Below, piece after piece: positions 15,105-38,735 of a DNA stretch of 64,000 bases. Made by a program: the position numbers and the translations under genes. Under the pieces are notes generated by a model. The model was not told the origin of the DNA. It worked only from the letters and a program-made list of their open reading frames with translations, and searched no databases. Each line of letters begins with the position of its first letter. Positions within the stretch are counted from its first letter, which is position 1. The DNA lies in the NCBI RefSeq assembly GCF_020165495.1, contig NZ_JAIUIE010000002.1, positions 372,001 to 436,000 of the forward strand. The letters run 5' to 3'. This DNA is from Mesorhizobium sp. BR1-1-16. GTDB taxonomy: Bacteria; Pseudomonadota; Alphaproteobacteria; Rhizobiales; Kaistiaceae.

Positions 15105-17558
15105 TCAGCCGCCGGCATAACGCGCGCCGTCGGTGGCGTTGATCGCCCGTATCTCACCCTCGGGCGCGGCCGTCTCGCCGGCCACGAACGGCAGCAGACG
15201 TACGGTGCGCCGGTCCCCCGGAGCGAGGTCGAAGCCGTTATCCTCAGCCCGATAATGCGCGTCGGCGATCGTGACATGCGCGGCCATTCGCTCTGCGGAG
15301 AGCGTGAGAAACCAGCCATGAGCATCGCGCTCTGCGGTCGCCGCAAGGCCGATCGCATGACGCTCACTTCGCCGGCCGGGCAGCCAATGCGTCGCCTCGG
15401 CGATCACGGTGCCATCGGCGGCGATCAGGCGGGCAAGGCTGACATCATGGCCGGCGGGACCGAAGCGATAGGCATAGGTCGTGTCGAAGAACGAGCCGAG
15501 CAGCTCGGTCGCGGTCACGGTCAATCCGCCGCGCGCCGGGATCGTGACGGCCTTCTCGCCGCGTGCCACGGGCAGGCGACCGTCGCGGAGGCAGGCGAGC
15601 GAAAGCGTCGCTTCGACGGCCTTGGGACCGTCATTGACGACATGGAGGTGCAGCCCATTGACGCCTTCATCGGTGAGGATGAGGGCAAGCGGGCGAAAAG
15701 CCCGCTTCAGCGCGTGATAGATCGATTTCGGCCGACCCAGCGCATCGACGACGCCCCAGCCGGCGCCCGGCACGAGATCGCGCCAGAACCAGACCAGCGC
15801 ACCGGCGGTCGGCGAGCCCGGTCGCCGCCATTCGCCTATGGTCACCTCCGCGACATCCGCCGTCGTCGCGCGGGCCAGCGCGAGATAGCGGGCCGGATCC
15901 TCCGTTCGGAGACGGGCGACGTCGACGCCATAGAGAAGCGCGGTGTAGTGATCGCGCACATCCTCGAAATCCCAGCTCGCGCCGAGATCCCGCGGCACGG
16001 CTGCTTTCCAGCGTGGGTGATGCGCGGGAGCGACGGGCAGCGCCTCCTGCAGCGTGGCCTCTTCAGGCACATTGGCGAAGGCGAGGCATTCCGAGGCGAA
16101 GCGGACATGGGACCGCCGCGCATCCTCAAGCGGCCGCCGATAGGCACCCACACCATAGTAATGCGTCACGCCGCTATCGGCGACGAAAGGCAATTCGCCG
16201 CCAATGGGCGATGACGCGACAAACGGCACGTCAGGCCGCAGCCGCGCGACTGCGTCGGGCAAGACGTCCTCGAAAATTCGGCTCGTCCAGGCCGAAGGCG
16301 GAAGGCCCATCATAGCCGCCTGCTGGGCCACTTCGCTGCCGCCGCAGAGAATGGCGAGTGATGGCGAAAGCGCCAGTCGGTTCAGCAACGCTTCCGCCTC
16401 GGCTGCAACGGTCGAGGCAAAGGCGTCGTCGGCCGGATAGTCGCAGTTCGCGAACATGAAATCCTGCCAGACGAGAATGCCATATTCGTCGCAGAGATCG
16501 TGAAAGGCACGCGCCTCATAAAGCATCGTGCCGCCGACGCGCAGCATGTTCACGCCAGCTGCTGCCGCCATCCTGATCAGCGGTTCGAGGGTGGCGCGAT
16601 CGCTGGCCAGGGAGACGATGTCCGCCGGTGTCCACACGGCCCCACGGCAGAAGACGCGAACGCCGTTGATCACTAGAGCGAAGCCGCGTCCGTCCGCCCC
16701 TTGATCGATGGCGATGGTGCGAAAGCCGGTCTGCCCGAGGTCGAGCCGGCGCGCGCCGATCTGGATCGCGACCGGATAAAGCTTGGGCGCACCATGGCTT
16801 GCCGGCCACCAGCGATCGACATCGGCGATCTCGATCGCTCCGCTGACACGATCGCCGAGGCGCGTCAGCGCGACGGCGTCGTTGCCGACCATGAGCGAGA
16901 TCAATTCGTCCGGGCCGTCATAGGTGAAGCTGACGGCGACAACGCCGGTTGTTCCGGCCAGCGACGCCTTGAGATCAAGCGCGCCAATTTGAGGCGCGCC
17001 TGTTTCCACAAGGCGGATCGGTCGATAGGGGCCAATGGCGTCGACCGGCGGACACCAGCCCGGCATATGGCCGAGCAGTGTGGTTCGCACCAGCCTGAGC
17101 CGCTGATCGTCGATCATGGTGGGCCGCCAGCGCGCGCGCCTCCCCTTGCGGCGCCCGAGTTCGGCGGTGAGGCTGCGGAAACCAATCGCCAGCACGGAGC
17201 CCGGCCGGCGCTCGATCAACGCCGAAACGGGCTGGAACATGCTGTCGCTGGCAAGGATCGGAGCGCCGTCGAGGAAGATCTCGGCGATCGTCGCGAGCCC
17301 TTCGAAAGAAAGACGCGCCGGGCCGCTGCCGGGCAATTTCACGCGATACCAGATGTCCTGATCGGCAAGCGGCGCAGGTCGTTCCAGCGACCAGCGCCCA
17401 AGCGCCGACAGAGCCTGCGCAGCCGTTCCGGGCACGATTGCCGGCAGCCAGTCGGCATCAGCCGGCGGGCCGGTAAAGACCCCGGCTTCGGTCGGCAGGA
17501 ATTCCCAGCCCGTGTTGAGATCGATGACGCGGTCCGCAGTGTCGGAGAGCCGCTGCAT
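15105..17558 (-). CDS. Glycoside hydrolase family 2, beta-mannosidase-like
   Basis: An 817-residue enzyme with the GH2 order: N-terminal jelly-roll (DLNTGWEFLPTEAG, then QDIWYRVKLPG and RLSFEGLATIAEIFLDG), Ig-like domain, then a TIM barrel with GGTMLYEARAFHDLCDEYGI and WQDFMFANCDYPADD, typical of beta-mannosidases. The probable acid/base is E409 in CGGSE, and the nucleophile is E490 in RFASECLAF; the usual GNNE around the acid/base is altered to GGSE. No signal peptide is seen, so it probably acts in the cytoplasm. It starts 7 bases after the DUF1839 stop and is the last gene of the carrier-protein operon, which suggests its substrate is related to the product of that module. A beta-galactosidase or glucuronidase activity cannot be excluded. 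Confidence 0.85.
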   Translation of the reverse strand: MQRLSDTADRVIDLNTGWEFLPTEAGVFTGPPADADWLPAIVPGTAAQALSALGRWSLERPAPLADQDIWYRVKLPGSGPARLSFEGLATIAEIFLDGAPILASDSMFQPVSALIERRPGSVLAIGFRSLTAELGRRKGRRARWRPTMIDDQRLRLVRTTLLGHMPGWCPPVDAIGPYRPIRLVETGAPQIGALDLKASLAGTTGVVAVSFTYDGPDELISLMVGNDAVALTRLGDRVSGAIEIADVDRWWPASHGAPKLYPVAIQIGARRLDLGQTGFRTIAIDQGADGRGFALVINGVRVFCRGAVWTPADIVSLASDRATLEPLIRMAAAAGVNMLRVGGTMLYEARAFHDLCDEYGILVWQDFMFANCDYPADDAFASTVAAEAEALLNRLALSPSLAILCGGSEVAQQAAMMGLPPSAWTSRIFEDVLPDAVARLRPDVPFVASSPIGGELPFVADSGVTHYYGVGAYRRPLEDARRSHVRFASECLAFANVPEEATLQEALPVAPAHHPRWKAAVPRDLGASWDFEDVRDHYTALLYGVDVARLRTEDPARYLALARATTADVAEVTIGEWRRPGSPTAGALVWFWRDLVPGAGWGVVDALGRPKSIYHALKRAFRPLALILTDEGVNGLHLHVVNDGPKAVEATLSLACLRDGRLPVARGEKAVTIPARGGLTVTATELLGSFFDTTYAYRFGPAGHDVSLARLIAADGTVIAEATHWLPGRRSERHAIGLAATAERDAHGWFLTLSAERMAAHVTIADAHYRAEDNGFDLAPGDRRTVRLLPFVAGETAAPEGEIRAINATDGARYAGG

Positions 17559-17565
17559 GAACGGC

Positions 17566-18567
17566 TCAGGCGGCCTGGCGGGACGGGGAGGCTTGGCCGA
17601 AACGCGCGCTGAGATCGCCGATCACCACGTCATAGGCCGTGGCCATCGGCGCGATGAAGCTGTCGAGCCCATCATAGCGGCCGCGGGCCATCGCGCGCGC
17701 CAGCTTGAACTGCATCGTCTTGGCGCTGGCCGCGATCTCGATCGCCGCAGCCTCTGCCGCCTCAAGCCCCGCCTCGCCATGGCGTGCCAGCCACGCAAGG
17801 TGGCTCGCCAGCAACTCGAAATTGGCGCCGAGCTGGCGCAGCGTGTTGAAGGCGTAGATGTGGAAATAGTCCGGCGATCGCGTGCCGAGATCGGCGAGAT
17901 GGGCGGCGAGCGCTTCGCCATAGGCGCGGATCGGATTGCTTGCCGGGCGGCGGCCGAGATGGCGGGCCAACAGTTTCTTGGCGACCGCGAGCGTATCGAT
18001 GCGCGGCGCAGATGCTGTCGGCAGCTTTACGAACTCGACATAGGGGAACAGCGCATCCGCACTCTTCGCCGAGCCGGGCGCCCCGAGGATGCCGTCATAA
18101 TCGGCGCCTTCGAGCGCGAAGAAGCTGCCATTGTGGAAATAGTGCATGCGGCGCGCGGCGATATCGAGATGCGTAATCCCGACGGTCGTCTTGGTGTGCT
18201 GGACGCGATAGGAGACGCCGCCGGTATCGGGCAGGAAATAGCCATCCACCTCGACCAGCACGACGCGGCCGCGACCGAGCTGCTCGGCGATGTGATCTTC
18301 CAGCCGGTCGAAGATCGCGAGCTCCTGGACGCGGAGGCCGTAGAGCGCCTCGAGATCGTCGACCGGAACCTTGAAGAACGAGAACTGATCGCCCTCGAAA
18401 TCCTGCGTCACGGTAAAGCCGAACATCGCCTCGACCTCGTAGCCCAAAGCGCCGACCAGTTCGATGAACAGGTCGACATAACAATTGGTCTCCGGCCAGT
18501 GGCGCGCGCTGTCATGCAGCGCGTGCGGGCGATGGGAGGCGGGGTCGAGCGTCGCGAGATCGGCCAT
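17566..18567 (-). CDS. DUF1839 protein, candidate papain-fold aminoacyl transferase
   Basis: A 333-residue protein of the DUF1839 family, known to occur next to amino acid:[carrier protein] ligases; its function is not established to my knowledge. I see an N-terminal ETNCYVDL with C29, the strongly conserved-looking QDFEGDQFSFFKVP, then VLVEVDGYFLPD (D108), a histidine in VQHTKTTVG (H124), and HLDIAARRMHYFHN (D135). This order of Cys, VD-Y-LP, His and Asp resembles the BtrH-type papain-like acyltransferases that move acyl groups from carrier proteins to amines. The C-terminal third is helical. It lies 3 bases after the ligase gene, so it is likely a direct partner. The transferase role is my inference. 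Confidence 0.8.
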   Translation of the reverse strand: MADLATLDPASHRPHALHDSARHWPETNCYVDLFIELVGALGYEVEAMFGFTVTQDFEGDQFSFFKVPVDDLEALYGLRVQELAIFDRLEDHIAEQLGRGRVVLVEVDGYFLPDTGGVSYRVQHTKTTVGITHLDIAARRMHYFHNGSFFALEGADYDGILGAPGSAKSADALFPYVEFVKLPTASAPRIDTLAVAKKLLARHLGRRPASNPIRAYGEALAAHLADLGTRSPDYFHIYAFNTLRQLGANFELLASHLAWLARHGEAGLEAAEAAAIEIAASAKTMQFKLARAMARGRYDGLDSFIAPMATAYDVVIGDLSARFGQASPSRQAA

Positions 18568-18570
18568 CGG

Positions 18571-19518
18571 TCAGCCCCAGAGTACGGCGCGGACCGATTG
18601 CGGCCAGTCGGCGACCTTCATGCCGTGATGGCGGAAGAGCGCCAACGCCACCCGTTCGAGGCCGAAGCCGACACAGGCCGAATGCGCGGGCGCGCCATCC
18701 GCCTGCTGGATGCCCCAGAGCGTGCCGAAATGGTCCTGATGATAGTTGAACGAGAGACAGGCGGTTGGCTTCTCGTTGGCGACGGGGATCAGAAGTTCGA
18801 ATTTGAGCCCCTGGTCGCGCTGATTGTTGGCCAGCATCTTGCCGGCGCGGCCGAAGAACGGATCGTTGGCCAGGTCGATTTCGCAAGAAAGGCCCAGCGA
18901 GCGGATCAGTTCGGGGCCACGCTCCAGCCAGCTTTCGCGGAAGGCGCGGACTTCTTCCGGCGAACCGATGCGGACATATTCCCGCATGCGGAAAAGCTGC
19001 ATGCGCGCCGGATCCTGTGACGGCTCGTGGCGGAAACAGTAGGATTTCAAGTCGAACAGCACGCCGCCTTCCGGCATCGGGCCGCGCTTCGCGACGGTCG
19101 GATAAAGCGGATAGCAGGCGGCCGGCGTCAGCACGACATCGGTGGCCTGCTGCAGCTCGGTCCAGTCCTCGCCATTCGCCAGCATCTGCAGGAGACGCGC
19201 GTGATCGGCCTCGCCGCCCATGAAGGAATGCACGCAGCCGGCGAGCTGCGGGAAGCTCTTGAGATAGCCGGACTTTTCCAGCATCGGCCGCGGCATGCCC
19301 GGCGGGAAATGAATGCGCTCGGCCTTGTCGGCGCCGGCATAGCGCGTGACGAGGGCTTCGAAACGCTCGATCACCTCCTCGAAATCGCCTGAGCGGCCAT
19401 AAAGGCCGTCGACGCCCGTCTCGGTGAGGACACCTGCGGTAAAGAGTTGGTCGAGGAACGCCTTCGCGCCAATCGGGCCCTCGGCGGATGGGGTCGCGGT
19501 CTGCGGCGCAGCGTCCAT
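18571..19518 (-). CDS. Amino acid:[carrier protein] ligase, seryl-tRNA synthetase-like
   Basis: A 315-residue class II synthetase catalytic core. Motif 2 ([21 protein letters not shown]) and motif 3 ([13 protein letters not shown]) are clear. Zinc ligands typical of archaeal-type SerRS and of this family are C135, E180 and C282. The N-terminal tRNA-binding helical domain of true SerRS is absent. Characterised homologues from Bradyrhizobium and Agrobacterium activate glycine or alanine with ATP and transfer it to the phosphopantetheine of a small carrier protein rather than to tRNA. The carrier is encoded two genes upstream (20713-20958). The gene is separated from the dehydrogenase by 1 base and from DUF1839 by 3, so it is part of one operon. 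Confidence 0.92.
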
Positions 19519-19519
19519 G

Positions 19520-20707
19520 TCAGTTCACCAGGCTGGTATCGAAACGGCTGACCAGCAGCAGGTTCGACGTGTTCGACAGGATGCGATCGTTCGAGATCAT
19601 GATCGCGGCGGAGGTCACGTCGCGCAGATGGCGCCCGACGCTGAAGGGCGTGTCGTTCTTATAGCCGGAGAGGCCGGTGATCAGCATCGCATGAGTGACG
19701 ATCTGCGCGGCGCGCTGCGATGTCGTAACCTTGAGATTGTTCATCTCGGCGGCGAAGCCCATCGAGGAGAGTTCGTCAGGCCGGCTCATCGCGGCCTCAT
19801 AGCGCACGACACCGGCGATGACGCTCGCCTTCATGTCCTGCAGCATGGCAACGACTTCCGCTAGGCGGAGGGCGCCCGGCGGCAAGCTGCCCGGCTGCTT
19901 GCGGGCAGCGGCGCGCACATAGGCCTGCGCCCGCGCCACCGCGTCGGCGGCGATGCCGAACCAGACGGCGCCCCAGAGAATATGCGAGGCCGAGAGCATC
20001 GACTGCGCGGCGATTTCGGAGAAGGGCTGCGGGAAAATCTGTGCGGCATCACCAGCCGAAACGAGGCGGAAGCCTTCCGAACAGGTGCCGCGCATGCCGA
20101 GCGTGTCCCAGCCCGTCGTCTTGTCGAGCGTATAGTCGCCGCGCTTCACCACCACCATTGACTGGTCGGAGCTTTGCGCGTCCGGCGAACGGCGGCAGGT
20201 GACGAGGATGGCGTCGGCATAGAGGCCGTAGGAGATGACGGTGGCGTCCTTCTCCAGAGTGAAGCGGCCATCGGCAACATTGACGGCGCAGATCGAATTG
20301 CGGAGGTCGCCGCCGATGCCGCCCTCGGTGGTGGCGGAGGCAAGGAGATGCTGCTGCTCGACCAGTTCGCGCATGAAGTCGGCATGCCAGGGGCTGCTGC
20401 CGCCATGCGAGACGAGGCTCGACGCCTTGATCTGGTGCATCGCATAAATCATGGCGGTCGAGCCGCAGGCCTGGCCGAGAATCGTGCAGAGCTCTGCCGT
20501 CTCAATCAGGCTGAGGCCTTCGCCACCGAAACGCTTCGGCACCATCACGCCCAACAGCCGCTCGGCCTTCAGGGCATCGACGGCTTCCTGCGGAAAGCGG
20601 CCCTCGCGGTCCACCTCGCCCGAATGCCGCGCAGCGATCTCGGCGACGCCGCGCATGCGCTCCGCCGGCGCGCGCAGGATTTCGATCGTGGGGGAGGCCA
20701 CAGGCAT
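19520..20707 (-). CDS. Acyl-CoA dehydrogenase homologue acting in carrier-protein module
   Basis: A 395-residue protein with the acyl-CoA dehydrogenase fold: N-terminal helical domain ([19 protein letters not shown]), middle beta domain ([28 protein letters not shown]) and C-terminal helical domain ending [20 protein letters not shown]. The FAD-interacting segments are present, but the position that normally supplies the catalytic Glu (the YEG region after the conserved RD) reads ISND here, around residues 371-374, so the usual base seems absent. Together with its place between the carrier protein and the aminoacyl ligase, this suggests oxidation or hydroxylation of a carrier-bound aminoacyl group instead of fatty-acid beta-oxidation. 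It ends 1 base before the ligase gene starts. Confidence 0.85.
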
Positions 20708-20712
20708 GATGG

Positions 20713-20958
20713 CTACACCTGCTCGCCGATGAGCTCGGCAATCGACCGGTCGATCGACTCGATCGAGACAAAGGTCTTGCGCGTCAGCATGCGCTCGGGA
20801 AATTCGATATCGAACTCGTCTTCGAGGGCCAGCATGAACTGGATCGAGGCGAAGGAGCTCAGCCCAGCCTCATAGAGATCAGATGTATCGGTAAGGGTGT
20901 CGACATCGACGGCGACGACTTTGCGCTCGGCGATAAGCTTACGAATGCGATCCCGCAT
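20713..20958 (-). CDS. Small acyl/aminoacyl carrier protein
   Basis: An 81-residue carrier protein with the four-helix pattern and the phosphopantetheine attachment site GLSSF (S35), corresponding to the canonical GxDSL. It is acidic and includes FMLALEDEFDIEFPE after the attachment serine. RBS GGGAG precedes the ATG. It opens a five-gene operon with the dehydrogenase homologue, the amino acid ligase, DUF1839 and GH2. It is therefore the likely thiol acceptor for glycine or alanine. A phosphopantetheinyl transferase is not encoded in the window and would have to be supplied from elsewhere. Confidence 0.93.
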   Translation of the reverse strand: MRDRIRKLIAERKVVAVDVDTLTDTSDLYEAGLSSFASIQFMLALEDEFDIEFPERMLTRKTFVSIESIDRSIAELIGEQV

Positions 20959-20982
20959 ATTCCCTCTCCCAACGAAATAACG

Positions 20983-20992
20983 TCAAATTTGA
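20983..20992. promoter_or_regulatory. Palindrome upstream of carrier-protein operon
   Basis: The 94-base gap between the GT4 stop and the carrier protein start contains the perfect palindrome TCAAATTTGA, 25 bases before the carrier ATG. It lies in an A/T-rich stretch and could be an operator or part of an internal promoter separating the carrier operon from the upstream polysaccharide genes. No -35/-10 pair is convincing. Confidence 0.3.
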
Positions 20993-21052
20993 TGCGAATT
21001 CTTAGGTGTGCGTGTCCGAACGAATTGTGAATCCGATCAGATAAACTCGGCC

Positions 21053-22276
21053 CTATTTCGGATGAATCCCCAAGAGCGGCGACGGCCGTTTCTGATGTTT
21101 AACCGATGCTGAAGCTTCATCAAGAAAATCGGGCACATCTGCAAGCGGCTGGCCCAACGCCACTCGATAGATATCGGCGTATCGGGCCGCGACGCTCGCC
21201 CATGCATAATCATCCACCCAGTCCGGCGCGCCTGGATGCTCAGGTAACTGGATAAAGGCGGCGGCGATGCCGGTGGCGGCGCGGCCGGGGTCGGTGAAAT
21301 CGATCAGGCCGATGCCGGCATGGCGGGCGGCAAGATCGCTGAAGGCGGTGTTGGCATGCACGACGAGGCCAAGGCCGGCGCTCGCTGCCTCGACAAGGGC
21401 AATGCCGAAGCCCTCGAAGTCCGAGGCTGACACGAACAGCGACGCGCGGCCGATCACGGCGCGAACCTCCGCGTCCGGCACGCCGAGATGCAGCGTCACA
21501 TGGTCATCGAGCCCCAGCCGAGCCACCTCGGCCATGAAACGCTCGGCCGACCAGTCCGACGCGGTTCCGACGACGGAAAGCTGCCATTCTGGGTCGCGGC
21601 GCACCAGCTCGGCCATCGCGGCCAGCAGACGCTCGGGCCGCTTGTTGACCGCGAGCCGTCCGATCGTCACGAGGTGCTTGACCTTACGCGGGCTCGCGGC
21701 GCCGCGGAATTTATCGATATCGACGCCGTTTTCGATGAGGGTCAGCCGCTTGCCGGCGATCGGGGCGAAGCGCGCCGCGTCCTGCGGGCTACAGGCGACG
21801 ATGCGCCGATAGGCAAGGCTCGAGAGGCGCGTCGGTCCGTTGAACCAGAGCTGCTTCAGCCCCGAATAGGCGCCGGAGTGAAAGAAGCCGCCATGCGTGG
21901 TGGCGACCAGGGGCGTCCGATGGACCGGCTTCGTCGCGGCCAGCGCATCAAAGAAGAAATCGATGGCGTGGACATGTACGAGATCGGCCTTCGCAACGGC
22001 GCTGGGAAATCCTGGCGCAATCGGATAGCGGCTCGATCCCCAATAGGGGATGCGGCGGATCGCGATCGGCCCGAGGTGATCCTCCCCCGGCAGTTTTTCG
22101 TCCGGCCGCGCGAACAGCCGATCGAGCGTTAGCACCGAGACATCGAGCCCCTCGGCCACCTGGGCGCGCGCCAGATTGGCAACGAAATCCTCGAGCCCGC
22201 CGCGGTTCGGATGGAACTGGCGCACCACATGCAGCACGCGCAAGGGGCGAACGGCAGGGGAGGCCGACATCTTCAT
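21053..22276 (-). CDS. Glycosyltransferase family 4 (GT-B fold)
   Basis: A 407-residue GT4 enzyme. The N-terminal Rossmann half starts LRVLHVVRQFHPNRGGLEDFVANLA, with the glycine-rich acceptor loop, and the C-terminal half has LVTIGRLAVNKRPERLLAAM and the nucleotide-sugar binding ASDFEGFGIALVEAASAGLG (E-x7-E motif). It would add one sugar from a nucleotide donor to a lipid-linked repeat unit on the cytoplasmic side of the membrane. It overlaps the upstream GH5 gene by 4 bases, placing it in the exopolysaccharide operon. The sugar transferred cannot be told from the sequence. Confidence 0.92.
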   Translation of the reverse strand: MKMSASPAVRPLRVLHVVRQFHPNRGGLEDFVANLARAQVAEGLDVSVLTLDRLFARPDEKLPGEDHLGPIAIRRIPYWGSSRYPIAPGFPSAVAKADLVHVHAIDFFFDALAATKPVHRTPLVATTHGGFFHSGAYSGLKQLWFNGPTRLSSLAYRRIVACSPQDAARFAPIAGKRLTLIENGVDIDKFRGAASPRKVKHLVTIGRLAVNKRPERLLAAMAELVRRDPEWQLSVVGTASDWSAERFMAEVARLGLDDHVTLHLGVPDAEVRAVIGRASLFVSASDFEGFGIALVEAASAGLGLVVHANTAFSDLAARHAGIGLIDFTDPGRAATGIAAAFIQLPEHPGAPDWVDDYAWASVAARYADIYRVALGQPLADVPDFLDEASASVKHQKRPSPLLGIHPK

Positions 22277-23310
22277 TTCGTCACCACGCCGCAGCTGGCG
22301 TCTTCGACCTTCATCAGGGGTTTCAGCGCCGCGATCTGCGCCCGGTCACCCTCTGCCGTGGGTTGGGCATTGAACATATAGTCGGGCGGCCACCATTCGC
22401 CCGCGGCCCAGTAGGTCCAGCCGATCCATTCGGCCTTGGCGCTGTCGACAGCCGTGACCAGCTTCGTCATGGCCGCGAGGCAGGCGGCGTCGTCGGCCGC
22501 CGCGAATTCACCGAGAAAACCGCGCTTGCCATTCGCCTTCAGCCAGGCCGTGACCCGGTCGATCCCTGCGAGCGCCTCGTCGGCGCCCGAACATTCGGCA
22601 TTGCGGCCGGAGAAGTCGGCATCGAGATATTGATGGAAATCATAGGCATAGCGGTTGAGCGGATCCGCGACGCCGGCCATCACCTTGCTGTTGTTGCCGA
22701 CGGGAAGGTCCTTGGTCCAGCTATGCGCTCCGGTATAGGCGGTGCCGGGCACGAGGATGAGATTGGCGGCGCCAGCCTTGCGGATCGCGGCGATCGCAAG
22801 GTTCACGGCGACGAGCCAGTCTTCGGCGTGGATGTCATAGGGCTCGTTCATCAGCGAGAAGACGACCTTTGGCTCCGATCGATCATGAGCAGAAAGGCGT
22901 GCCCAGAACGAAGCAAAGGACGCGGTCGGCACCGCGTCCGAGCCGATCCGCTGCTCGTTGTAGTAGGCATAGTTATGGGGGTCGAGGATGACGGTCAGCC
23001 CGGCCTTGGTTGCATCGGCCACGGTCTCGTCGAGCGCGGCGAGTTCGGCGGGATCGAATGGCTTGCCGAGCTTGGGCTGGAGACGTTCCCAGCGGAAGGG
23101 CAGGCGGATCGCCGTCGCGCCGGTGCTGGCGACATAGTCGATCGTCGCCTTGGTCGGATACGTGTAATCGGTGTGCAGCTTGCCTGGCAGCGTCCCGAAC
23201 TCGGCCCCGGCCAGATTGACACCGCGCAGGCATGGTTCAGCTACCGCCGTCGTTGTCATCGCAGCGAGCGCAAGCAGGCCCGCGATCCCGTGGCCAAATT
23301 TGCGTTTCAT
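22273..23310 (-). CDS. Secreted glycoside hydrolase family 5 (endoglucanase-like)
   Basis: A 345-residue protein with a signal peptide (positively charged MKRKFGHG, hydrophobic GIAGLLALAAMTTTAVA, cleavage about residue 24). GH5 hallmarks are LRGVNLAGAEFG, IRLPFRWERLQP, ILDPHNYAYY, the acid/base E156 in SLMNEPYD and the nucleophile E268 in GFLGEFAA. The fold predicts cleavage of beta-1,4 or beta-1,3 glucan-type linkages in the periplasm. Encoded within the polysaccharide operon (4-base overlaps on both sides), it probably trims or releases the exported polymer, as ExoK/ExsH-type glycanases do in rhizobia, although those belong to other families. Confidence 0.92.
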   Translation of the reverse strand: MKRKFGHGIAGLLALAAMTTTAVAEPCLRGVNLAGAEFGTLPGKLHTDYTYPTKATIDYVASTGATAIRLPFRWERLQPKLGKPFDPAELAALDETVADATKAGLTVILDPHNYAYYNEQRIGSDAVPTASFASFWARLSAHDRSEPKVVFSLMNEPYDIHAEDWLVAVNLAIAAIRKAGAANLILVPGTAYTGAHSWTKDLPVGNNSKVMAGVADPLNRYAYDFHQYLDADFSGRNAECSGADEALAGIDRVTAWLKANGKRGFLGEFAAADDAACLAAMTKLVTAVDSAKAEWIGWTYWAAGEWWPPDYMFNAQPTAEGDRAQIAALKPLMKVEDASCGVVTK

Positions 23311-25154
23311 GATGCGAAAACCTCGCGCAGCGCCGACAGCAGCCGGTCACGGGCGCCTCGATGGGTGAAGTTGTGGTCAGCGTCGGGAATGAGCCGCATG
23401 CCGACGCGGCGATAGGAGGCGAGGCGTTGGCCGCGCTCCCCGAAATAGACAGCGAACTCGTTGAGCCCGGCATCATCGGTCGAGAACAGCATCGTGACGT
23501 CGGTGCCGCGTTGCTCCAGAGCCCGAAACTGGCGATGTACCGCGCGGTGCATGCGCGCATGTTTGGAAAGGCTGCCGAGGAAAGGCGCTAGTTTGCGGCT
23601 TGCTCTGGTCGCGAGGGTCCGGGCGATATAGCGGCCGGCCGGCAGAATGTTGAGCTGGCCGCGCAGAAGCCGTTTGAGCGTGTCGCGCTTCATCAAGGTC
23701 GCGCCGAAATTGCCGACGCTCCGATGGCCGTAGCGAACGGCAGTCGCGACATCCTCGTCGGCGTCCCAGACGAAGCGCTGCGTGTTGACGATGACAAGCT
23801 TCCGCACGTCTTCCCGCTGCACCGCCGCCTGGAGCGCGGCATAGCCGCCGCTGCAGCGGCCGATCAGGATGATCGGTCCCTTCGAAAGCGAGGCGACATG
23901 ATCGACGGCGGCCACCGCATCGGCGATATGGAGGCCGGAATAGAGCACTTCGTCGGGCGCTCCGGGATGGTCGGGGCTGTCACCGATACCGTCGAGATCG
24001 AAGCGGAAGCTCGCGAACCCGTCCCGGGCAAGGGCGCGCGACAGCTCGACCGTCACGCGGGCCCAGCCGATGTGATAGTCATGCCCGGCATTGGTGAAGA
24101 CCAGCGTCGGTGCGTTGTGGACGCCGGTCGGACGGCAGAGGATGCCGAAGAGACGGCCATCGCGGCCGAAGCGGCCAGGCAGTTCCTCGAAGCCGTCGCC
24201 GCGCAGTGGCTCTGGCGGCGGCGGCAATATGGCGGGACGCGGCCTAGTGGTCGCGAGGCGCCCGATCCAGGAGGCGATCCCGGCGAGCGTCGCCATCGGC
24301 GGCCGTGCCTGTGTCGGGTCGGTCAGGAGCGTTTCATAGCCTTCGAACGGCTGACGCGTGACATTGGCGCCGAGCGATGCGAGGTGATCGGCGAGCGGTC
24401 CATCGCGGCCCGACATCATGCGCCCGACCACCAGCACATCCGCGGCGGGCCGCGCATCGAGTGCATCGAGCCGGATCGCCTTGATCGCCGCGGCCCGGCC
24501 GGGCGGCAGAGCGAGGCCTGCGACGGCGAGGCCATTCTCGTCGCCGGGATCGCGGCCGATGCCGATCGAATCCGTGACGATGCGGGACCAGGCTGAGAGC
24601 TCGCGCAGATAGTGGCGGCCATTGTCGACCGCTGCCATCGAGACGACGGCACGCGTGCCGGACATTTCCGCTGCCATCAGCAGCGCCAGCGAGGCGCCGA
24701 GGCCTTGGCCGACAAGGACGATCTCATCCGCCCCCGACGTCTCCTTTAGCCAGTTCGCCGCATGCCTGACCGCGTCCTTCCAGTCGTCGATTCCGGAAGG
24801 CGGCTCGGCCGGGTCGAGTGCATCGCTGGTGCCCGGATAGTCGAAGCGGAGGCATGCCAGCCCCTCGGCTGCGATCAGCGCTGCCAGGCTGCGCCAGGTC
24901 GAGCGGATGCACATCTCCTCGAAGCCGATCGGGCTCAGCATCAGCACGGCAAGCCCGCTGCGGCCTGGATGGTAGAAGCCGCCGAAGGTTCCGAGCGTCA
25001 CCGGCAGGCCAACGGCCGCCGAATCCGTCGCAGCGCCCGCTTCCGCCGGGTCGTTCTTCGAGAGACCGCCCAGCGAAAAGGGAGGCGAGGCGTCGCTGCG
25101 CCCAAACGTGGCCGGCATGAGCAGAGCCGCGTCGCCATTGGAACGGATGTTCAT
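23307..25154 (-). CDS. Tandem alpha/beta hydrolase protein
   Basis: A 615-residue protein containing two alpha/beta hydrolase domains, roughly 50-300 and 330-612. In the first, the nucleophile elbow reads VGQGLG, so glycine (G151) replaces the catalytic Ser and the domain is probably inactive. In the second, the elbow reads IGRCSG, so the nucleophile would be Cys (C434), as in dienelactone hydrolase; a late histidine in DADHNF could complete the triad. Similar hydrolases occur in exosortase-linked polysaccharide loci. Within an operon that also encodes a carrier protein, an acyl- or aminoacyl-transferring role is conceivable. It overlaps the flippase gene and the GH5 gene by 4 bases each. Confidence 0.82.
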   Translation of the reverse strand: MNIRSNGDAALLMPATFGRSDASPPFSLGGLSKNDPAEAGAATDSAAVGLPVTLGTFGGFYHPGRSGLAVLMLSPIGFEEMCIRSTWRSLAALIAAEGLACLRFDYPGTSDALDPAEPPSGIDDWKDAVRHAANWLKETSGADEIVLVGQGLGASLALLMAAEMSGTRAVVSMAAVDNGRHYLRELSAWSRIVTDSIGIGRDPGDENGLAVAGLALPPGRAAAIKAIRLDALDARPAADVLVVGRMMSGRDGPLADHLASLGANVTRQPFEGYETLLTDPTQARPPMATLAGIASWIGRLATTRPRPAILPPPPEPLRGDGFEELPGRFGRDGRLFGILCRPTGVHNAPTLVFTNAGHDYHIGWARVTVELSRALARDGFASFRFDLDGIGDSPDHPGAPDEVLYSGLHIADAVAAVDHVASLSKGPIILIGRCSGGYAALQAAVQREDVRKLVIVNTQRFVWDADEDVATAVRYGHRSVGNFGATLMKRDTLKRLLRGQLNILPAGRYIARTLATRASRKLAPFLGSLSKHARMHRAVHRQFRALEQRGTDVTMLFSTDDAGLNEFAVYFGERGQRLASYRRVGMRLIPDADHNFTHRGARDRLLSALREVFAS

Positions 25155-26560
25155 GCGGACGCCTCCCCGTTTCCCTCAGTGAGCGCGATGCGGCGATCGA
25201 CGGCCACGCTCTTCTGGACGCGGCGGCGTTCCCGCCGTCCGTCGAAGAGAAGGAACGGCTTCAGGAAAGCGGTCGCCATATTGTCGATGCGCCAGCGCCG
25301 CATGACCCAGACCGTGGCGATCAGGTTCGAGGCGACGTTCATCAGCAACCCTGCGATGGCGATCCCCATGAGCCCGTCGAGCTTGGCGAGGCCGAAGAGA
25401 AGGCCGAGATAGAACACGAACAGGATCGAGCGGCCGATCAGGAAATAGCGCTCGCCGCCGCCGATCATCAGCAGCCATGAGCCTGGCCCGAAAAAGGCGA
25501 GCGAGACAGCCGAGAGGCAGAGCGCGATCAGCACGTCATGATGCTGCGCGAACTCGGCATTGAACAGCACCAGCACATAGTTGCCGACGATCGCGAGGCC
25601 GAGCGCGCCGGTCAGCGAGATCGCGAAGCTCGCGAAGGACAGCCGGCCGACCAGCCGCTGCGCTCCGGCGACATCCTCGGCCTGAAAGCGGGCAGCGATC
25701 ATCGGAATGCCGACCGTATCGATGGCCGCGACGGGCAGCGTCAGGAACATCGCGATGCGCAGCGCGACGAAATAGAACGCGGCCTGATCCAGCCCGAGCG
25801 CCGCGCCGATCACGATCGTCTCAAGATAGGCCGAGGCGGAGTTCAGGATATTGTTGGCGATGAAATAATAGCTTTCCTTGCGCCATTGCCGCCGCGTCAC
25901 GCGGTCCGTGCGGCCGGATTTGCCAAGAAAAGCCACGCCCTCATCGCGCACGAAATGGCGCATCTGATAGGCGGTGGCAGCCGCCAGCAGCAGCGTGACC
26001 GCCCAGAAGGCCTCGGCGCCGCCATAGAGCACGCCGCCGGCGGCGAGGCTGGCAAGGACAGCCGCCGAGGCGACGCGCCAGGCGATCTCGCGCGGCGTCA
26101 GCGACAGGTTGATGCGGCCGTGGATGCGGAAATAGTTCTGCAGATATTCGCTGACCGCATAAACGGCCGCGAAGATCAGCGCGACATAGATCTGGTCATA
26201 GGGCGCCGGCAGCCGCCCGCGGATCAGGAAGCCGATGATCGACGCCGCGATCAGCGTCCCGACGCCGAGGATCAGCCAGAGGGCGTTGACGCGCAGCAGC
26301 GCCTTGTTGCCCCGGTCGTCGAGGCCGATACCGGAGCGGTAATGCTTCACGACCAGGATCTGCTGGCCGAGCACGAAGATCAGCCCGAGCGCGCTGCCGA
26401 TCGAGAACAGGAAGACGTAAAGCCCATATTCCTGCGTCGAGAGCGCGTGGCTGGCCACGAGCAGCACGAGGAACGACAGCACGGCGCTGCCGAGGCGCGA
26501 GGAAAAGGCCGAGGCGAAGCGTCCGGCGCCTGGCCTGTTGCGGAGACGGTCGAGGATCAT
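25151..26560 (-). CDS. Polysaccharide flippase (Wzx/MOP family)
   Basis: A 469-residue polytopic protein with about 12-14 hydrophobic segments, beginning FASAFSSRLGSAVLSFLVLL and including ALSTQEYGLYVFLFSIGSAL near the N-terminus, the usual layout of Wzx-type lipid-linked oligosaccharide translocases. It would flip the undecaprenyl-linked repeat to the periplasm for the polymerase encoded at 31003-32298. Its start overlaps the stop of the upstream GT4 by 4 bases and its stop overlaps the hydrolase start by 4 bases. The C-terminal tail (LLFDGRRERRRVQ onward) is basic and cytoplasmic. Confidence 0.88.
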   Translation of the reverse strand: MILDRLRNRPGAGRFASAFSSRLGSAVLSFLVLLVASHALSTQEYGLYVFLFSIGSALGLIFVLGQQILVVKHYRSGIGLDDRGNKALLRVNALWLILGVGTLIAASIIGFLIRGRLPAPYDQIYVALIFAAVYAVSEYLQNYFRIHGRINLSLTPREIAWRVASAAVLASLAAGGVLYGGAEAFWAVTLLLAAATAYQMRHFVRDEGVAFLGKSGRTDRVTRRQWRKESYYFIANNILNSASAYLETIVIGAALGLDQAAFYFVALRIAMFLTLPVAAIDTVGIPMIAARFQAEDVAGAQRLVGRLSFASFAISLTGALGLAIVGNYVLVLFNAEFAQHHDVLIALCLSAVSLAFFGPGSWLLMIGGGERYFLIGRSILFVFYLGLLFGLAKLDGLMGIAIAGLLMNVASNLIATVWVMRRWRIDNMATAFLKPFLLFDGRRERRRVQKSVAVDRRIALTEGNGEASA

Positions 26561-27783
26561 CGGCGGATATTTCCCGCCGCGACGGCCGGCGCGACACGCG
26601 ATGGCTGGACCAGCCGGTCGAAGAACTCCGTGTAAGCGGCAGAAAGGATCGGCGGCAGATAACGTCGCGCCGACGAAAGCGCACCAGCGGAAAGCGACGC
26701 GACCATCTCCGGCGAGTCAATGAGCCGACCGAGCGTCGCGGCAAGCGCCCCAGCATCGCCCGGCGCCACGGCATAACCGTTGAACCCGTCCTCGATCGTC
26801 TCGGCGATGCCGCCGGAACGCGCGCCGATCACCGGGACGGCATGCGCGAAGGCCTCGACGATGACCCGTCCGAACGGCTCCTGGAACAGCGACGGCACGA
26901 CAAGGACGTCGATCTGCGGGAAGAACGCGTCGGGATCGCTCCAGCCAAGGAACCGCGTATCGGCCTCGGGAAACTGGCTATGCAGCGCCTCGGCGTAAGC
27001 ATCCTGCCCGCTGCCGGCGATCAGGAATTCGGCCCGGCCAGAGCCGGCGATCATCCGGGCGGCCTCGGCAAGGATATGGGGTCCCTTCATCGGGGTGTGA
27101 ACACCGATGAAGCCGATGCGCAGCGGCCGGCCCTCCGGCGCAGGGCGGGGCGCATCGGCCATGAGGCGGGGTACGACGCCCGGGATGCGGCGTGTCTCGG
27201 CGTTCGGGAAATAGCCGGCATCGGTATGCCGGGCGATGATGAAATCGGTTTCGCCGACGACGCCGTCGACGAGACGGCTCATCGCCTTCTTGCCGATCGA
27301 CGTTGCCTTGCACGAGCCACAGGCGCCGGCGCAGTTCTCCCCGCCCCGCATCATCGAGCCCTTCCAGCAAAGGAGGAAGGTGGAGCGCAGGATATGGCAG
27401 ACAGGAACGCCCGCGGCCCGCGCTGCGCCCCAGGTCGCCACATTGACGTTTTCGATGCTGTCGGTCAGCACCAGATCAGGCTTGAAGCGGACAATCTCGC
27501 GCCGCATCGCGAGGAAGGCGCGCGGATTGAAATTTTCCAGCGCATGCCACGCGGCCTTCTTCCATGCGGGACGCGGCACGCGGTAATTCCAGTAGAGATT
27601 GAGCGTCTCGAGCCGGCGCACCGGAACGCCGTCGAGCACCTCGTCCTTCGCTTCGTCGGCGACATTGATGACGAGAAGATCGTGGCCGGCACCGAGAAGC
27701 AGCCTGGCCACCAGCATGGCGGACACGGGACCCCCGCCATCCATGAAGGGCGGAAAAGCCGCCGCCGCCATCAAGATCCGCAT
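26557..27783 (-). CDS. Glycosyltransferase family 4 with Cys-rich insert
   Basis: A 408-residue GT-B glycosyltransferase. The N-terminus MRILMAAAAFPPFMDGGGPV has the acceptor-side glycine loop; the C-terminal half has IGFIGVHTPMKGPHILAEA and VVPSLFQEPFGRVIVEAFAHA with the E-x7-E donor motif. Between the two lies a segment with five cysteines (LLCWKGSMMRGGENC then AGACGSC) similar to inserts seen in other surface-polysaccharide GT4 enzymes and possibly binding metal. It follows the wecG-like gene by 37 bases and overlaps the flippase gene by 4. The sugar specificity is unknown. Confidence 0.9.
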   Translation of the reverse strand: MRILMAAAAFPPFMDGGGPVSAMLVARLLLGAGHDLLVINVADEAKDEVLDGVPVRRLETLNLYWNYRVPRPAWKKAAWHALENFNPRAFLAMRREIVRFKPDLVLTDSIENVNVATWGAARAAGVPVCHILRSTFLLCWKGSMMRGGENCAGACGSCKATSIGKKAMSRLVDGVVGETDFIIARHTDAGYFPNAETRRIPGVVPRLMADAPRPAPEGRPLRIGFIGVHTPMKGPHILAEAARMIAGSGRAEFLIAGSGQDAYAEALHSQFPEADTRFLGWSDPDAFFPQIDVLVVPSLFQEPFGRVIVEAFAHAVPVIGARSGGIAETIEDGFNGYAVAPGDAGALAATLGRLIDSPEMVASLSAGALSSARRYLPPILSAAYTEFFDRLVQPSRVAPAVAAGNIRR

Positions 27784-27820
27784 CTGAATTTCCCGATCGA
27801 CGATCCAGACATTGCCCGTC

Positions 27821-28654
27821 TCAGTTTCCCGGCCGCAGACGCTTCGGCAGGTCCTGTTCCTCGCGCTCCAGGTCGGCCGGCTTCAGCCACAGGCGCGCAA
27901 TGCGCAGCCGCATGATCTGGACGAGGAAGATCGCGAGCCCGCCCGTATAGCGCCAGCCGAGCCGCCGCGGCTCGATCATCAGGCGGAACAGCCATTCAAG
28001 CCGCAGCACCCGCATCCAGTGCGGCGCGCGCGGCACGGTGCCGCTGATGAAATCGAACAACGCCCCGACACCGATGAGGACGTGGGGCGACAACTCGGCC
28101 GCATGGCGATCGATGAACTGCTCCTGGCGCGGATTGCCCATGGCAACGAGCAACAGGCCCGCCTTCGAAGCGTTGATCTCGGCAACAACCGCGGCCTCGT
28201 CCTCCCGCTTCAGATAACCATGATGCATGCCGACCACATGGTGGCGGGGAAAACGTGCGGCGAGTTGCCGTCCCGCTTCCTCGACCACCGGTTGCTTGGC
28301 GCCGAGCAGATAGATCGAAACGGGCGCAGTGGCCTTTTCGAGGATTTCGGGTACGAGATCAGTGCCGTTCAGATTGTCCTCGAAGCCATGCCCCATGAAC
28401 AGCGACGACGCCAAATCGATCCCGACGCCGTCATTCAGCACCAGGAAGCGCGACAGCGTGTCGATATAGGCCTGCGAGCGCAGCGCCGAGACCATGGTAT
28501 TCGCATTGCAGAACGCCACGCGGATCTGGCTGCCGTCGTGAAACGACCGGTCGATGGTCTGCAGGACCTTCGCGCGCGAGGCATAGGGGATGTGCACGCC
28601 GCCCACGCGGAGAAAACGCGGCACCCATCGCCGATCTGGACCGTCATAGGACAT
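27821..28654 (-). CDS. WecG/TagA/CpsF family glycosyltransferase
   Basis: A 277-residue GT26 enzyme with the family features FCNANTMVSAL, LVLNDGVGIDLAS (catalytic Asp in NDG), LNGTDLVPEIL, VSIYLLGAKQPVVEEA and LLVAMGNPRQEQFI, and the C-terminal RLEWLFRLMIEPRRLGWRY that contacts the membrane. Members transfer a sugar (ManNAcA, ManNAc or glucose/glucuronate types) to an undecaprenyl-linked acceptor during repeat assembly. It is the first gene of the minus-strand operon and is divergent from the chain-length regulator gene. The initiating undecaprenyl-phosphate sugar-phosphate transferase is not in the window. Confidence 0.93.
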   Translation of the reverse strand: MSYDGPDRRWVPRFLRVGGVHIPYASRAKVLQTIDRSFHDGSQIRVAFCNANTMVSALRSQAYIDTLSRFLVLNDGVGIDLASSLFMGHGFEDNLNGTDLVPEILEKATAPVSIYLLGAKQPVVEEAGRQLAARFPRHHVVGMHHGYLKREDEAAVVAEINASKAGLLLVAMGNPRQEQFIDRHAAELSPHVLIGVGALFDFISGTVPRAPHWMRVLRLEWLFRLMIEPRRLGWRYTGGLAIFLVQIMRLRIARLWLKPADLEREEQDLPKRLRPGN

Positions 28655-28954: not shown

Positions 28955-30994
28955 ATGCTCGCGCAGGGGGATGGACGGCTCATGGAGGCAATGCTTCCCG
29001 CTCGCCGGCCGCTCTCCTCGATCGACGTGATGGAGCTTTTCGGGGTCGTGCGGCGCCGTCTTGCGCTCGTCTTCGGCTGCGGATTGCTGTTCCTGGTTCT
29101 GGCCGCCCTCTACATCCACCACCAGCATCCGGTCTACCGGTCCACCGTCGAGATCCTGGTCGATCCGCAGGGACTGCAGGTCGTCGGCCGCGATATCCTG
29201 CCGACCGACAGCTCGGCATCGATCGACTTCGCAAATGTCGACAGCCAGCCGCTGATCATTGCCTCCACCAATGTACTGGCCGAGGTGATCCGCAAGCTCG
29301 ATCTGGAGCACGATCCCTTCTATGCCGGTTCCATGGTCAACTGGCCGGCCGATGGCGAGGGCGCCGTCAGCCCGCGCTTTGTCCATGTGCTCGACATGCT
29401 GCGCGGAAACGTCGTCATCCATCGCGCCGATCCCTCGCTCGTCTTCCAGATCACCGTAACGCATGACGACGCCGATCGAGCCGCTCTCATCGCCAACACG
29501 ATCTCGGCTGTCTATCTGGAGCAGAGCCGCGAGGCCCGCCTGACCGCCGCGCGGCAGGCGAACGAGTCCCTTGTCGGACAGGCGACCTCGCTTCGCGCCC
29601 AGTTCGAGGAGGCGCAGCACCGCCTCGAGCAATTCCGCGCCGACAACGGCCTCGTGACGACCGGTACGGCCGGGCTCGTCGTCAACCAGCGCCTGCAGGA
29701 TCTCACCACCCGCATCACCGCCGCAACCGCCCAGGTCGCGGAGCTGGAGGCGCGCCGCAACCAGGTGCGCGGCCTCGATCTCGCCGTGGTCGAGGCCGGC
29801 GGCATTCCCGAAGTGGTGAGCTCGCCGACGATCACGGCGCTGCGAACCCAATATGGCCGAGTGGTGCAGCAGCAGGCGGAGCTTGCCCGTTCGCTCGGCC
29901 CCAATCACCCGGCGCTGCAGCAAAGCGACTCCGAGCGCGAGGCCGTGGCCCGGCTGATCGATGCCGAGATCATCCGCATCAAGCAGTCGATCGAGGCCGA
30001 TTATGCCCGCGCCAAGGCCAATCTTGCCTCGCTGCAGGGGCAGGAGCAGGCGATCACCGCGACGCAGGCGACCAGCAACACTGCTGAAATCAGGGCCCGC
30101 GAACTGCAGGGCGATGCTGACGCGATCCAGCAGGTCTATAATGCGGTGCTGAACCGCACCAAGGAGCTCGACCTCCAACAGCAGATCCAGACCAACAATT
30201 CGCGCGTGATCTCGGAGGCTGTGCCACCGGTCAAGGCGTCAGCTCCGCCAAAGGCGATCGTTCTGGCGGCGGGCACCTTGTTCGGCCTTGCGGTGGGCAT
30301 CGCGCTCGCCTTCGCTGTCGATTTCCTCGCTTCTGATCCGATCGCCAGGCTGCGCGCGATCAGCGGCAGCCTAGGCACCGAGCTTGTCGGCCTGTTGCCG
30401 TCTCGCCGCCGCCGCTGGCTGAAGCGCGACGGTGTCGGGCATGTCGAGGCTGACGATCCCGATGCGGCCGACCGCGAGGCCCTCTTTCCGGCCGCCCAGG
30501 CGCTGGCCATTCATCTTGCAGACGCGCTTCCGGCTACGATCCTGCTGATCGAGGCCGGCTCGGTCCGGAACGGACCACGCGTCGCGCGGGGTCTCGCCGG
30601 TGCGCTCGCCGATCTCGGCGAGGAAACGCTGCTCTGTTCGGCGAACGACATCTCGTCGATGCTGCGCATCGAGCGTTCGGCGCCGGAGACCATCCGCGCG
30701 GCGCATAAGGAAGTCAGCGAACGCCTGCTCGGAACCCACGGCCGCCGCCGCGCTGGCATTCAGGATCCCGATAGCAGCGATCCCTACGGCCTCGATGGCC
30801 GCGAATTCATCCTCATCGACGGCGGTCCGTCGCGCGACACGCGGACATTGGCGGCGAGCTACGGCTATGTCGATGCGGTCATCGTCGTGGCGACGACCGG
30901 CCATAGTTCGAGCGAGGATGTCCGCGACCTCATCGCCTCGCTCGGTCCGCTCGCTTCGGCCGCGATCGGCGTGGTCGGCGTCGTCGATCGCTGA
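28955..30994 (+). CDS. Wzz/GumC-like chain-length determinant with degenerate tyrosine-kinase domain
   Basis: A 679-residue inner-membrane protein. The Wzz domain (about 25-120) starts with a membrane helix (LALVFGCGLLFLVLAALYI) and YRSTVEILVDPQG; a long periplasmic coiled-coil region follows (about 190-415, GNVRD-like ARELQGDADAIQQVYNAVLNR), then a second helix (AIVLAAGTLFGLAVGIALAFAV). The C-terminal 180 residues have the shape of a bacterial tyrosine kinase (FILIDGGPS as Walker A' equivalent), but the P-loop position reads GSVRNGPRVA with no GKS/T, and there is no terminal Tyr cluster. It therefore probably controls polymer length and export without ATP-driven autophosphorylation. An alternative start is ATG 28982; I kept 28955 because GAGG lies 7 bases before it. 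Confidence 0.9.
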   Translation: MLAQGDGRLMEAMLPARRPLSSIDVMELFGVVRRRLALVFGCGLLFLVLAALYIHHQHPVYRSTVEILVDPQGLQVVGRDILPTDSSASIDFANVDSQPLIIASTNVLAEVIRKLDLEHDPFYAGSMVNWPADGEGAVSPRFVHVLDMLRGNVVIHRADPSLVFQITVTHDDADRAALIANTISAVYLEQSREARLTAARQANESLVGQATSLRAQFEEAQHRLEQFRADNGLVTTGTAGLVVNQRLQDLTTRITAATAQVAELEARRNQVRGLDLAVVEAGGIPEVVSSPTITALRTQYGRVVQQQAELARSLGPNHPALQQSDSEREAVARLIDAEIIRIKQSIEADYARAKANLASLQGQEQAITATQATSNTAEIRARELQGDADAIQQVYNAVLNRTKELDLQQQIQTNNSRVISEAVPPVKASAPPKAIVLAAGTLFGLAVGIALAFAVDFLASDPIARLRAISGSLGTELVGLLPSRRRRWLKRDGVGHVEADDPDAADREALFPAAQALAIHLADALPATILLIEAGSVRNGPRVARGLAGALADLGEETLLCSANDISSMLRIERSAPETIRAAHKEVSERLLGTHGRRRAGIQDPDSSDPYGLDGREFILIDGGPSRDTRTLAASYGYVDAVIVVATTGHSSSEDVRDLIASLGPLASAAIGVVGVVDR

Positions 30995-36092: not shown

Positions 36093-36107
36093 CCTCCATC
36101 GATCAGC

Positions 36108-36134: not shown

Positions 36135-36171
36135 CTGTCTTCAATTCCCCTTGAAAATCCGGACCTGATCC

Positions 36172-38707: not shown

Positions 38708-38735
38708 GAAAACGTCACTGGACTGGATCATGGAG

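Follow-up and report, generated by a model that had tools for sequence, protein, structure and literature searches.

Amino acid:[carrier protein] ligases are seryl-tRNA-synthetase-like enzymes whose relatives charge glycine or alanine onto the phosphopantetheine of a carrier protein. Mocibob et al. reportedly worked on this family; to our knowledge, structures and assays exist for its members, but no physiological product has ever been assigned to them. The present study concerns a 64,000-nucleotide stretch of Mesorhizobium sp. BR1-1-16 (contig NZ_JAIUIE010000002.1, positions 372,001 to 436,000; hereafter the window, always at its full length), in which such a ligase is encoded together with a stand-alone carrier protein, an acyl-CoA-dehydrogenase-fold flavoprotein, a DUF1839 protein, a GH2 glycosidase and a two-domain alpha/beta hydrolase (Table 1). 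We lean slightly toward the view that these six genes form an aminoacyl-transfer unit serving a Wzx/Wzy-type exopolysaccharide, in which the ligase would charge the carrier and DUF1839 would acylate a sugar amine of the precursor.

Several described systems bear on the proposed transfer step. CtaG and AziU are carrier-dependent acyltransferases, BtrI and BtrJ belong to the acyl-carrier to aminoglycoside transfer of the butirosin pathway, and the lincosamide system uses an adenylation domain in the place that the seryl-tRNA-synthetase-like ligase occupies here. CcbD and LmbD catalyze a ping-pong condensation of carrier-protein-bound proline with a thiooctose amine; in CcbD, the proline is loaded onto a cysteine and attacked by the amine, with a Cys-His-Glu triad (excerpts of the review PMC12945683). 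DUF1839 itself was described in a 2023 survey as a papain-like family with a C(T/S)H site, for which a glycan role was guessed from context; according to the modelling published there, its His and Thr/Ser are switched relative to their canonical places (PMC10318531, in excerpt).

Structurally, the AlphaFold2 model of the window's DUF1839 protein (mean pLDDT 88.7, pTM 0.89) resembles several of these enzymes. The first 19 ranks of a Foldseek search against the PDB are AziU3/U2 (3 chains), CtaG (8) and CcbD (8), with E-values of 3.5e-7 to 3.6e-3 and TM-scores of 0.50-0.63. Ranks 1-15 indicate the same fold as the CcbD/CtaG kind (E 3.5e-7 to 5.5e-4, query TM-score 0.55-0.63) over 323-363 aligned columns, at a root-mean-square deviation (rmsd) of 5.4-7.4 and 11-14% identity. 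This match of the model is clear but remote, and comparison with solved chains by sequence revealed no link, giving one chance-level match (E 0.21). The direction of the fold comparison points to an amide rather than an ester linkage, and on this modelling DUF1839 is likely a carrier-dependent, amide-forming transferase. The candidate nucleophile Cys29 begins the first long helix of the model (residues 29-40), as judged by model position, without superposition on CcbD. It is kept in 97 of 100 DUF1839 rows, and H124 and H145 are both invariant in all 100. For Cys29, the exceptions are a row from a truncated gene call and the copies within the module in two genomes, G255 and G328, in which Cys29 is replaced by Arg or Gln, T127 by Ala or Ser, and T128 by a Cys seen in no other row, and in which H124, H145 and D156 are kept. 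Each of the two genomes also encodes another DUF1839 copy that retains Cys29, next to genes for a chain-length protein and the hydrolase; judging from sequence, the Cys29-less copies (L166:10934-11920, L168:8400-9380) are possibly inactive scaffolds.

The DUF1839 gene belongs to a conserved unit. Scanning a genome collection for DUF1839 matched at least 592 stretches, of which 561 were confirmed and the best 80 kept; being the best of at least 561, this 80-locus set is biased toward relatives of the window and carries mostly Hyphomicrobiales names. The nearest named locus among these 80 is that of Kaistia soli DSM 19436 (86% in DUF1839), and we read the genus of the window as Kaistia. Codon-scored gene calling followed by clustering, counted without the window, recovered DUF1839 in 79 loci, the ligase in 77, the flavoprotein and GH2 in 75 each, the carrier in 73 and the hydrolase in 58; a profile search detected the hydrolase in 59 of the 75 loci retained for the counts described below. 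Gene order (carrier-flavoprotein-ligase-DUF1839-GH2) hardly varies, and the hydrolase usually comes next, in line or convergent. Because the core keeps the same order in most of the 80 loci, the grouping goes beyond chance. The preliminary description regarded the five genes from the carrier to GH2 as a tight sub-operon. They are indeed a tight block, but not the complete unit: since the order is near constant and the hydrolase usually adjoins, the block is part of a six-gene unit with the hydrolase as its sixth conserved member.

Co-occurrence analysis supports this definition. In a phylum-wide sample of 398 genomes, 44 had any match to the ligase, 28 had one over the cut-off, and 16 encoded DUF1839, all of them within those 28. 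A set of 56 hand-chosen genomes comprised 19 with the module (the 16 DUF1839 genomes of the 398 plus three Kaistia, L148-L150) and 37 without it (25 DUF1839-negative genomes, 10 Kaistia lacking the ligase, and G398 and G399, which have the ligase and no adjoining DUF1839; these last 12 were not searched for DUF1839 itself). The full-length hydrolase occurs in 19/19 module genomes versus 0/37 others, where G335 gave two partial matches, neither above 50 bits; the GH2 orthologue (>690 bits) likewise occurs in 19/19 versus 0/37, with remoter GH2 proteins (at most 160 bits) in 11/37. For the exopolysaccharide GH5 orthologue (>280 bits), the counts are 10/19 versus 0/37, with matches not exceeding 62 bits in 2/37. 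As the 56 genomes are related, these counts are not independent trials. Hydrolase and GH2 track DUF1839 rather than the ligase as such, because 12 of the 37 non-module genomes have the ligase. Around the module, an EpmA gene and an EpmB-like aminomutase gene were also observed in 30/80 loci, nearly all with rhizobial names (e.g. L070:1821-4670; clusters c6, c7 and c8), and elongation factor P in 29/80. EpmA is another tRNA-synthetase-derived ligase, here adjoining the first; this proximity, though odd, is probably plain synteny.

Genomic neighborhood analysis makes a link between the module and Wzx/Wzy polysaccharide highly probable. Shared profiles, iterated over all sets, were used to count polysaccharide genes within about 10 kb around the module; they were seeded from module loci and may favor them. 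Five members of the 80-locus set (L066, L069, L122, L130 and L131) were dropped for short contigs or failed gene calling, leaving 75. A second set held 15 module loci from the sampled genomes (two of them, L158 and L166, with short flanks), to which three further Kaistia loci were added; the 75- and 15-locus sets overlap (L054 is G420:C4 and L070 is G265:C41). The controls were 24 stretches lying 60 kb from the module on either side, taken from 13 of the 15 sampled genomes, the 75-locus set having none of its own. At least one polysaccharide gene was found in 32/75, 9/15 and 3/3 (Kaistia) module loci versus 2/24 controls (one-sided Fisher test, 0.0013 for the 75-locus and 0.0009 for the 15-locus set), and at least two in 25/75, 6/15 and 3/3 versus 0/24. 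Among the full-flank loci of the 75-locus set, 31/69 have at least one and 24/69 at least two. The preliminary description had named a lack of enrichment for polysaccharide genes as evidence against decoration of a glycan; module loci are richer than controls, so the idea stands on this count.

The hydrolase carries the same association where it lies outside the core. This is the case in seven sampled genomes: G107, G191 and G255 have it on a separate contig, and in G382, G249, G324 and G328 the distance is about 7-18 kb. Polysaccharide genes surround it in all seven (L194-L199, L169, L168; stretches without matched controls). These range from a single weak chain-length match in G328 to the joint presence of flippase, GH5, GT4, GT2, WecG, chain-length and polymerase profiles in G191. 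When both neighborhoods are considered, polysaccharide genes accompany the module, the hydrolase or both in 12 of the 15 sampled module genomes. Two genomes, G043 and G253, encode the hydrolase as the C-terminal portion of a 1093-residue fusion (L155:14917-18198, L160:2456-5737). In the G253 protein (L160), Pfam identifies the N-terminal portion as a Wzx-type flippase, and the G043 protein shares its first 30 residues.

Within Kaistia, the locus is subject to exchange. The ligase is absent from 10 of 14 genomes, and in 9 of these 10 a single contig could be shown to contain both the left-hand gene and PhnI (PhnI was not found in the fragmented genome G419; overall, it was found in 13/14 Kaistia genomes). 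In all nine, the corresponding slot is occupied by another exopolysaccharide locus, with GT4 genes and a chain-length protein 26-31% identical to that of the window in 9/9 and a WecG-like protein in 8/9; none of the six module genes occurs in the slot of these nine genomes. As other exopolysaccharide loci take the same slot, the module and the polysaccharide genes therefore come and go as one unit in Kaistia.

The ligase and carrier fall within characterized families. Solved relatives of the ligase are 3mey and 4h2w, and the nearest solved carriers are 4h2w_C, from a ligase complex, and Atu2571 (2jq4). In the conservation alignments, which exclude gene calls below 85% of the median length and include the window (74 GH2, 57 carrier, 78 ligase and 68 flavoprotein rows kept), the phosphopantetheine serine of the carrier, Ser35, is invariant in 57/57 rows. 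Ligase loci lacking DUF1839 have other companions. A conserved orphan protein of 271-291 residues occurs in 9/14 of them (L135:10540-11415, L146:13089-13904, L141:13631-14500); it was considered as a GNAT replacing DUF1839 on account of a GNAT-like motif and rejected, since Pfam, NCBIfam and a PDB profile search gave no support. Genes for an AMP-ligase and a short-chain dehydrogenase/reductase are present in both of the DUF1839-less loci scanned (L142 and L146), and GINT1_N-domain proteins (PF24793) were observed nearby (L142:13810-15387, L146:5413-6882), with chain-length genes in the same stretch. G296 encodes a distant relative of the ligase (101 bits, well under the cut-off; PF00587 27.6 bits, cut-off 29.3) at 1.4 kb from a marginal BtrH_N protein (30.2 bits, cut-off 29.7), in a cluster with an ATP-grasp protein and a carbamoyltransferase by Pfam (L221:4728-12443) and, from reading of the translations, an 85-residue carrier-like protein, a MATE-like transporter and a nonribosomal peptide synthetase (NRPS). 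The BtrH_N protein of G296 does not match the DUF1839 profile (hhalign probability 0.1). From sequence, this cluster may be another, though weaker, instance of a ligase of this type close to a papain-like transferase.

The flavoprotein has 20 solved matches below 1e-12, mostly acyl-CoA dehydrogenases and including 3mxl, named a nitrososynthase, and DnmZ (4zxv). At what we take to be the two places of the dehydrogenase catalytic Glu (like residue 376 of medium-chain acyl-CoA dehydrogenase and residue 254 of isovaleryl-CoA dehydrogenase), our reading of the HMMER alignments puts I371 and S241; the closest solved homologue, 7p98, is named a dehydrogenase and likewise lacks Glu at the first place. 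GH2 retains E409 and E490, presumably the catalytic pair from its motifs, in 74/74 rows, and by eye has no signal peptide. The second domain of the hydrolase contains an invariant G-x-Cys434-x-G, Asp561 and His594 (20 rows), its first domain shows no nucleophile on reading of the same 20-row alignment, and the nearest folds of its model are ordinary alpha/beta hydrolases, generic esterases and lipases.

Several observations weigh against a transfer unit devoted to exopolysaccharide. No recognized polysaccharide gene lies within about 10 kb of the module in 43/75 loci, G028, G143 and G197 have none beside either the module or the hydrolase, and the hydrolase is not within 10 kb in 16/75 loci (the span to which the search was limited). 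By itself, the ligase family shows at most a weak tie to polysaccharide: DUF1839 is missing from 12 of the 28 ligase genomes, and of 14 DUF1839-less ligase loci, five have at least one polysaccharide gene (Fisher 0.0498) and two have at least two. The fold matches of DUF1839 are remote over all 19 ranks (11-14% identity, rmsd 5.4-8.2), and strict membership in the BtrH family is rejected on the result of hhalign against BtrH_N (PF14399; probability 3, E 0.014); the window's own genome has no PF14399 match. Pfam and NCBIfam scans revealed no gene for making or baring an amino sugar among the core genes, and a free amine acceptor is therefore assumed. Flavoprotein, GH2 and hydrolase are without a proven place in simple glycylation. 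The proposal of the preliminary description, that the aminoacyl group decorates a glycan made by the adjacent glycosyltransferases, thus holds in part: enrichment, the neighborhood of the hydrolase and the CcbD/CtaG-like model of DUF1839 speak for it, and the 43 loci and three of 15 genomes without polysaccharide genes and the weak tie of the ligase alone speak against it.

Part of this evidence would also suit a unit that makes a small secreted amino-acid glycoside, similar to a lincosamide or an aminoglycoside, with the neighboring flippase and glycosyltransferases serving that product. The nearest folds of DUF1839 come from natural-product pathways, the distant ligase relative of G296 has a BtrH_N protein nearby within an NRPS-like cluster, and the 43 loci without nearby polysaccharide genes agree with such a product. 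Yet genes for chain-length proteins are repeatedly found next to the module or the hydrolase, the hydrolase can be fused to a flippase, and the Kaistia slot alternates with other exopolysaccharide loci, and we regard a small glycoside as unlikely. A different division of labor would make DUF1839 a thioesterase or peptidase and have the flavoprotein modify the carrier-bound amino acid, leaving the cysteine-nucleophile hydrolase to transfer the acyl group to the sugar as an ester or amide. The invariant Cys-Asp-His set of the hydrolase, and its standing as the core gene that occurs beside flippase and glycosyltransferase genes when apart from the module, fit such a role, and papain-like folds do include hydrolases (PMC10318531, in excerpt). 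This reassignment appears quite unlikely: CcbD, among the best solved matches of DUF1839, makes an amide from a carrier thioester, and the hydrolase most resembles ordinary esterases and lipases.

That the module and the exopolysaccharide locus are mere neighbors, the charged carrier serving an unrelated metabolism, is very unlikely. Many loci do lack a nearby polysaccharide gene, and the module stands beside EpmA and EpmB-like genes in 30/80; against this count the enrichment over controls, the separate hydrolase that is still found beside polysaccharide genes, the flippase fusion, the slot exchange and the confinement of the GH5 orthologue to module genomes.

For the aminoacyl-transfer unit favored here, the path from ligase through carrier and DUF1839 to an amine is the best-supported mechanism. 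The ligase would adenylate a small amino acid, glycine or alanine as in its relatives, and load it onto the phosphopantetheine of the carrier, where the flavoprotein may oxidize the aminoacyl group or its amine. DUF1839 would then accept the acyl group on Cys29 and hand it to an amine, as CcbD does to an amino sugar, so that an amide would form in the cytosol, on either a sugar nucleotide or a lipid-linked repeat; whether the acceptor is an amino sugar of the exopolysaccharide precursor we consider evenly balanced. Among the roles that we infer for the other partners, GH2 and the Cys-hydrolase might trim or proof-read sugar and acyl intermediates, and Wzx/Wzy/Wzc-type proteins, to judge by their families, would export and polymerize the decorated repeat. 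A fuller version, which we offer tentatively and consider improbable as a whole, has the flavoprotein, without the usual base and perhaps similar to an amino-sugar N-oxygenase, alter the bound amino acid, DUF1839 amidate the sugar, and the Cys-hydrolase and GH2 edit the lipid-linked repeat before export. Such a line of six proteins would amount to a new class of surface-polymer chemistry, yielding exopolysaccharides that bear a novel modified amino-acid group in many rhizobial bacteria.

In the window, all eleven minus-strand genes that the preliminary description placed in one run (15105-28654) are confirmed as open reading frames with spacings of at most 94 bases; from GH2 to WecG these are 7, 3, 1, 5, 94, -4, -4, -4, -4 and 37 bases in the list of open reading frames. 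Because the chain-length and polymerase-like genes sit divergently beside the flippase and glycosyltransferase operon, the region from 15.1 to 34.1 kb reads as one Wzx/Wzy-type exopolysaccharide locus carrying aminoacyl-carrier genes. Flippase, chain-length protein and glycosyltransferases are recognized by Pfam, the polymerase by position and reading alone; its cluster adjoins the chain-length protein in several module loci.

Table 1. Features of the exopolysaccharide locus and its flanks (window coordinates).
Feature	Coordinates	Strand	Evidence
Glycogen-debranching-like gene, left of locus	12434-14512		Read by eye as GlgX, without profile scan
GH2 (mannosidase-like) glycosidase, 817 aa, core gene	15105-17558	-	PF22666 33.7 bits (cut-off 27), PF17753
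DUF1839, predicted papain-like carrier-protein-dependent N-acyltransferase, Cys29	17566-18567	-	PF08893 402 bits (cut-off 22.5)
Amino acid:[carrier protein] ligase, seryl-tRNA-synthetase-like	18571-19518	-	NF005479 501.7 bits (cut-off 357)
Acyl-CoA-dehydrogenase-fold flavoprotein	19520-20707	-	PF02771, PF00441
Stand-alone aminoacyl carrier protein, Ser35	20713-20958	-	NF005480 101.6 bits (cut-off 72)
GT4 glycosyltransferase	21053-22276	-	PF13439/PF00534
GH5 glycosidase, N-terminal signal-like stretch (by eye)	22273-23310	-	PF00150 166.8 bits
Two-domain alpha/beta hydrolase, sixth core gene	23307-25154	-	TIGR03100/TIGR03101-like, both sub-threshold
Wzx-type flippase	25151-26560	-	PF01943 40.3 bits
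GT4 glycosyltransferase	26557-27783	-	PF13692/PF00534
WecG/TagA/CpsF glycosyltransferase	27821-28654	-	PF03808 198 bits
Wzz/GNVR chain-length (Wzc-like) protein, divergent	28955-30994	+	PF13807, PF02706
Membrane protein, putative Wzy-like polymerase	31003-32298	+	Label from reading and position; no Pfam match
Acyltransferase-3 family membrane protein	32252-33394	-	PF01757 90.1 bits
Hexapeptide-repeat transferase	33499-34110	-	PF00132
Phosphonate-binding protein, permeases (ABC transporter) and PhnI, right of locus	35160-40970

Among the papers listed from the open-licence PMC literature, no assignment of the charged carrier to exopolysaccharide and nothing joining exosortase with aminoacyl was found, and Atu2571, Atu2573, Bll0957 and Bll0956 appeared, in the excerpts retrieved, in a hub-gene list and a proteome table only. 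The ligase, the carrier and the fold class are already known; no publication in this literature was found to combine them in an exopolysaccharide-decorating unit together with two additional constant partners.

Each known system shares a part of this arrangement. The Bll0957/Atu2571 ligase-carrier pair (3mey, 4h2w, 2jq4) belongs to the same families, here joined by DUF1839, GH2 and the hydrolase. Both domains of the hydrolase match the exosortase-A-associated hydrolases 1 and 2 (TIGR03100, TIGR03101), in the order 2 then 1; unlike those, they are fused in one chain and score below the cut-offs (99.8 versus 168.45 and 49.8 versus 202.75 bits). Butirosin BtrH is a papain-like acyl-carrier:aminoglycoside acyltransferase (PMC10318531, in excerpt), to whose BtrH_N profile DUF1839 shows only that similarity of probability 3. 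With CcbD of celesticetin and LmbD of lincomycin the resemblance is one of fold and scheme: a papain-like cysteine enzyme fold is common to DUF1839 and CcbD, and CcbD uses a carrier-bound aminoacyl group and a sugar amine acceptor (PMC12945683, in excerpt), the same scheme as proposed here. However, DUF1839 has no sequence match to solved chains and is set in an exopolysaccharide locus.

The Dlt system also loads an amino acid onto a small carrier for a cell-surface polymer (PMC12930378, in excerpt). The carrier resembles DltC weakly (NF003464 24.5 bits, cut-off 68), and none of the ten operon proteins scanned matches DltA, DltB or DltD; the locus further differs in its predicted Cys transferase and in the amide, rather than ester, expected as product. 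The present analysis names DUF1839 as the likely acceptor-side enzyme, adds as partners the hydrolase and GH2, present in all module genomes that were checked, and connects these genes with exopolysaccharide. If the proposed unit is real, a carrier-charging ligase family of unclear purpose would gain a job, and Gram-negative bacteria of many rhizobial genera would possess a cytosolic, amide-forming counterpart of Dlt.

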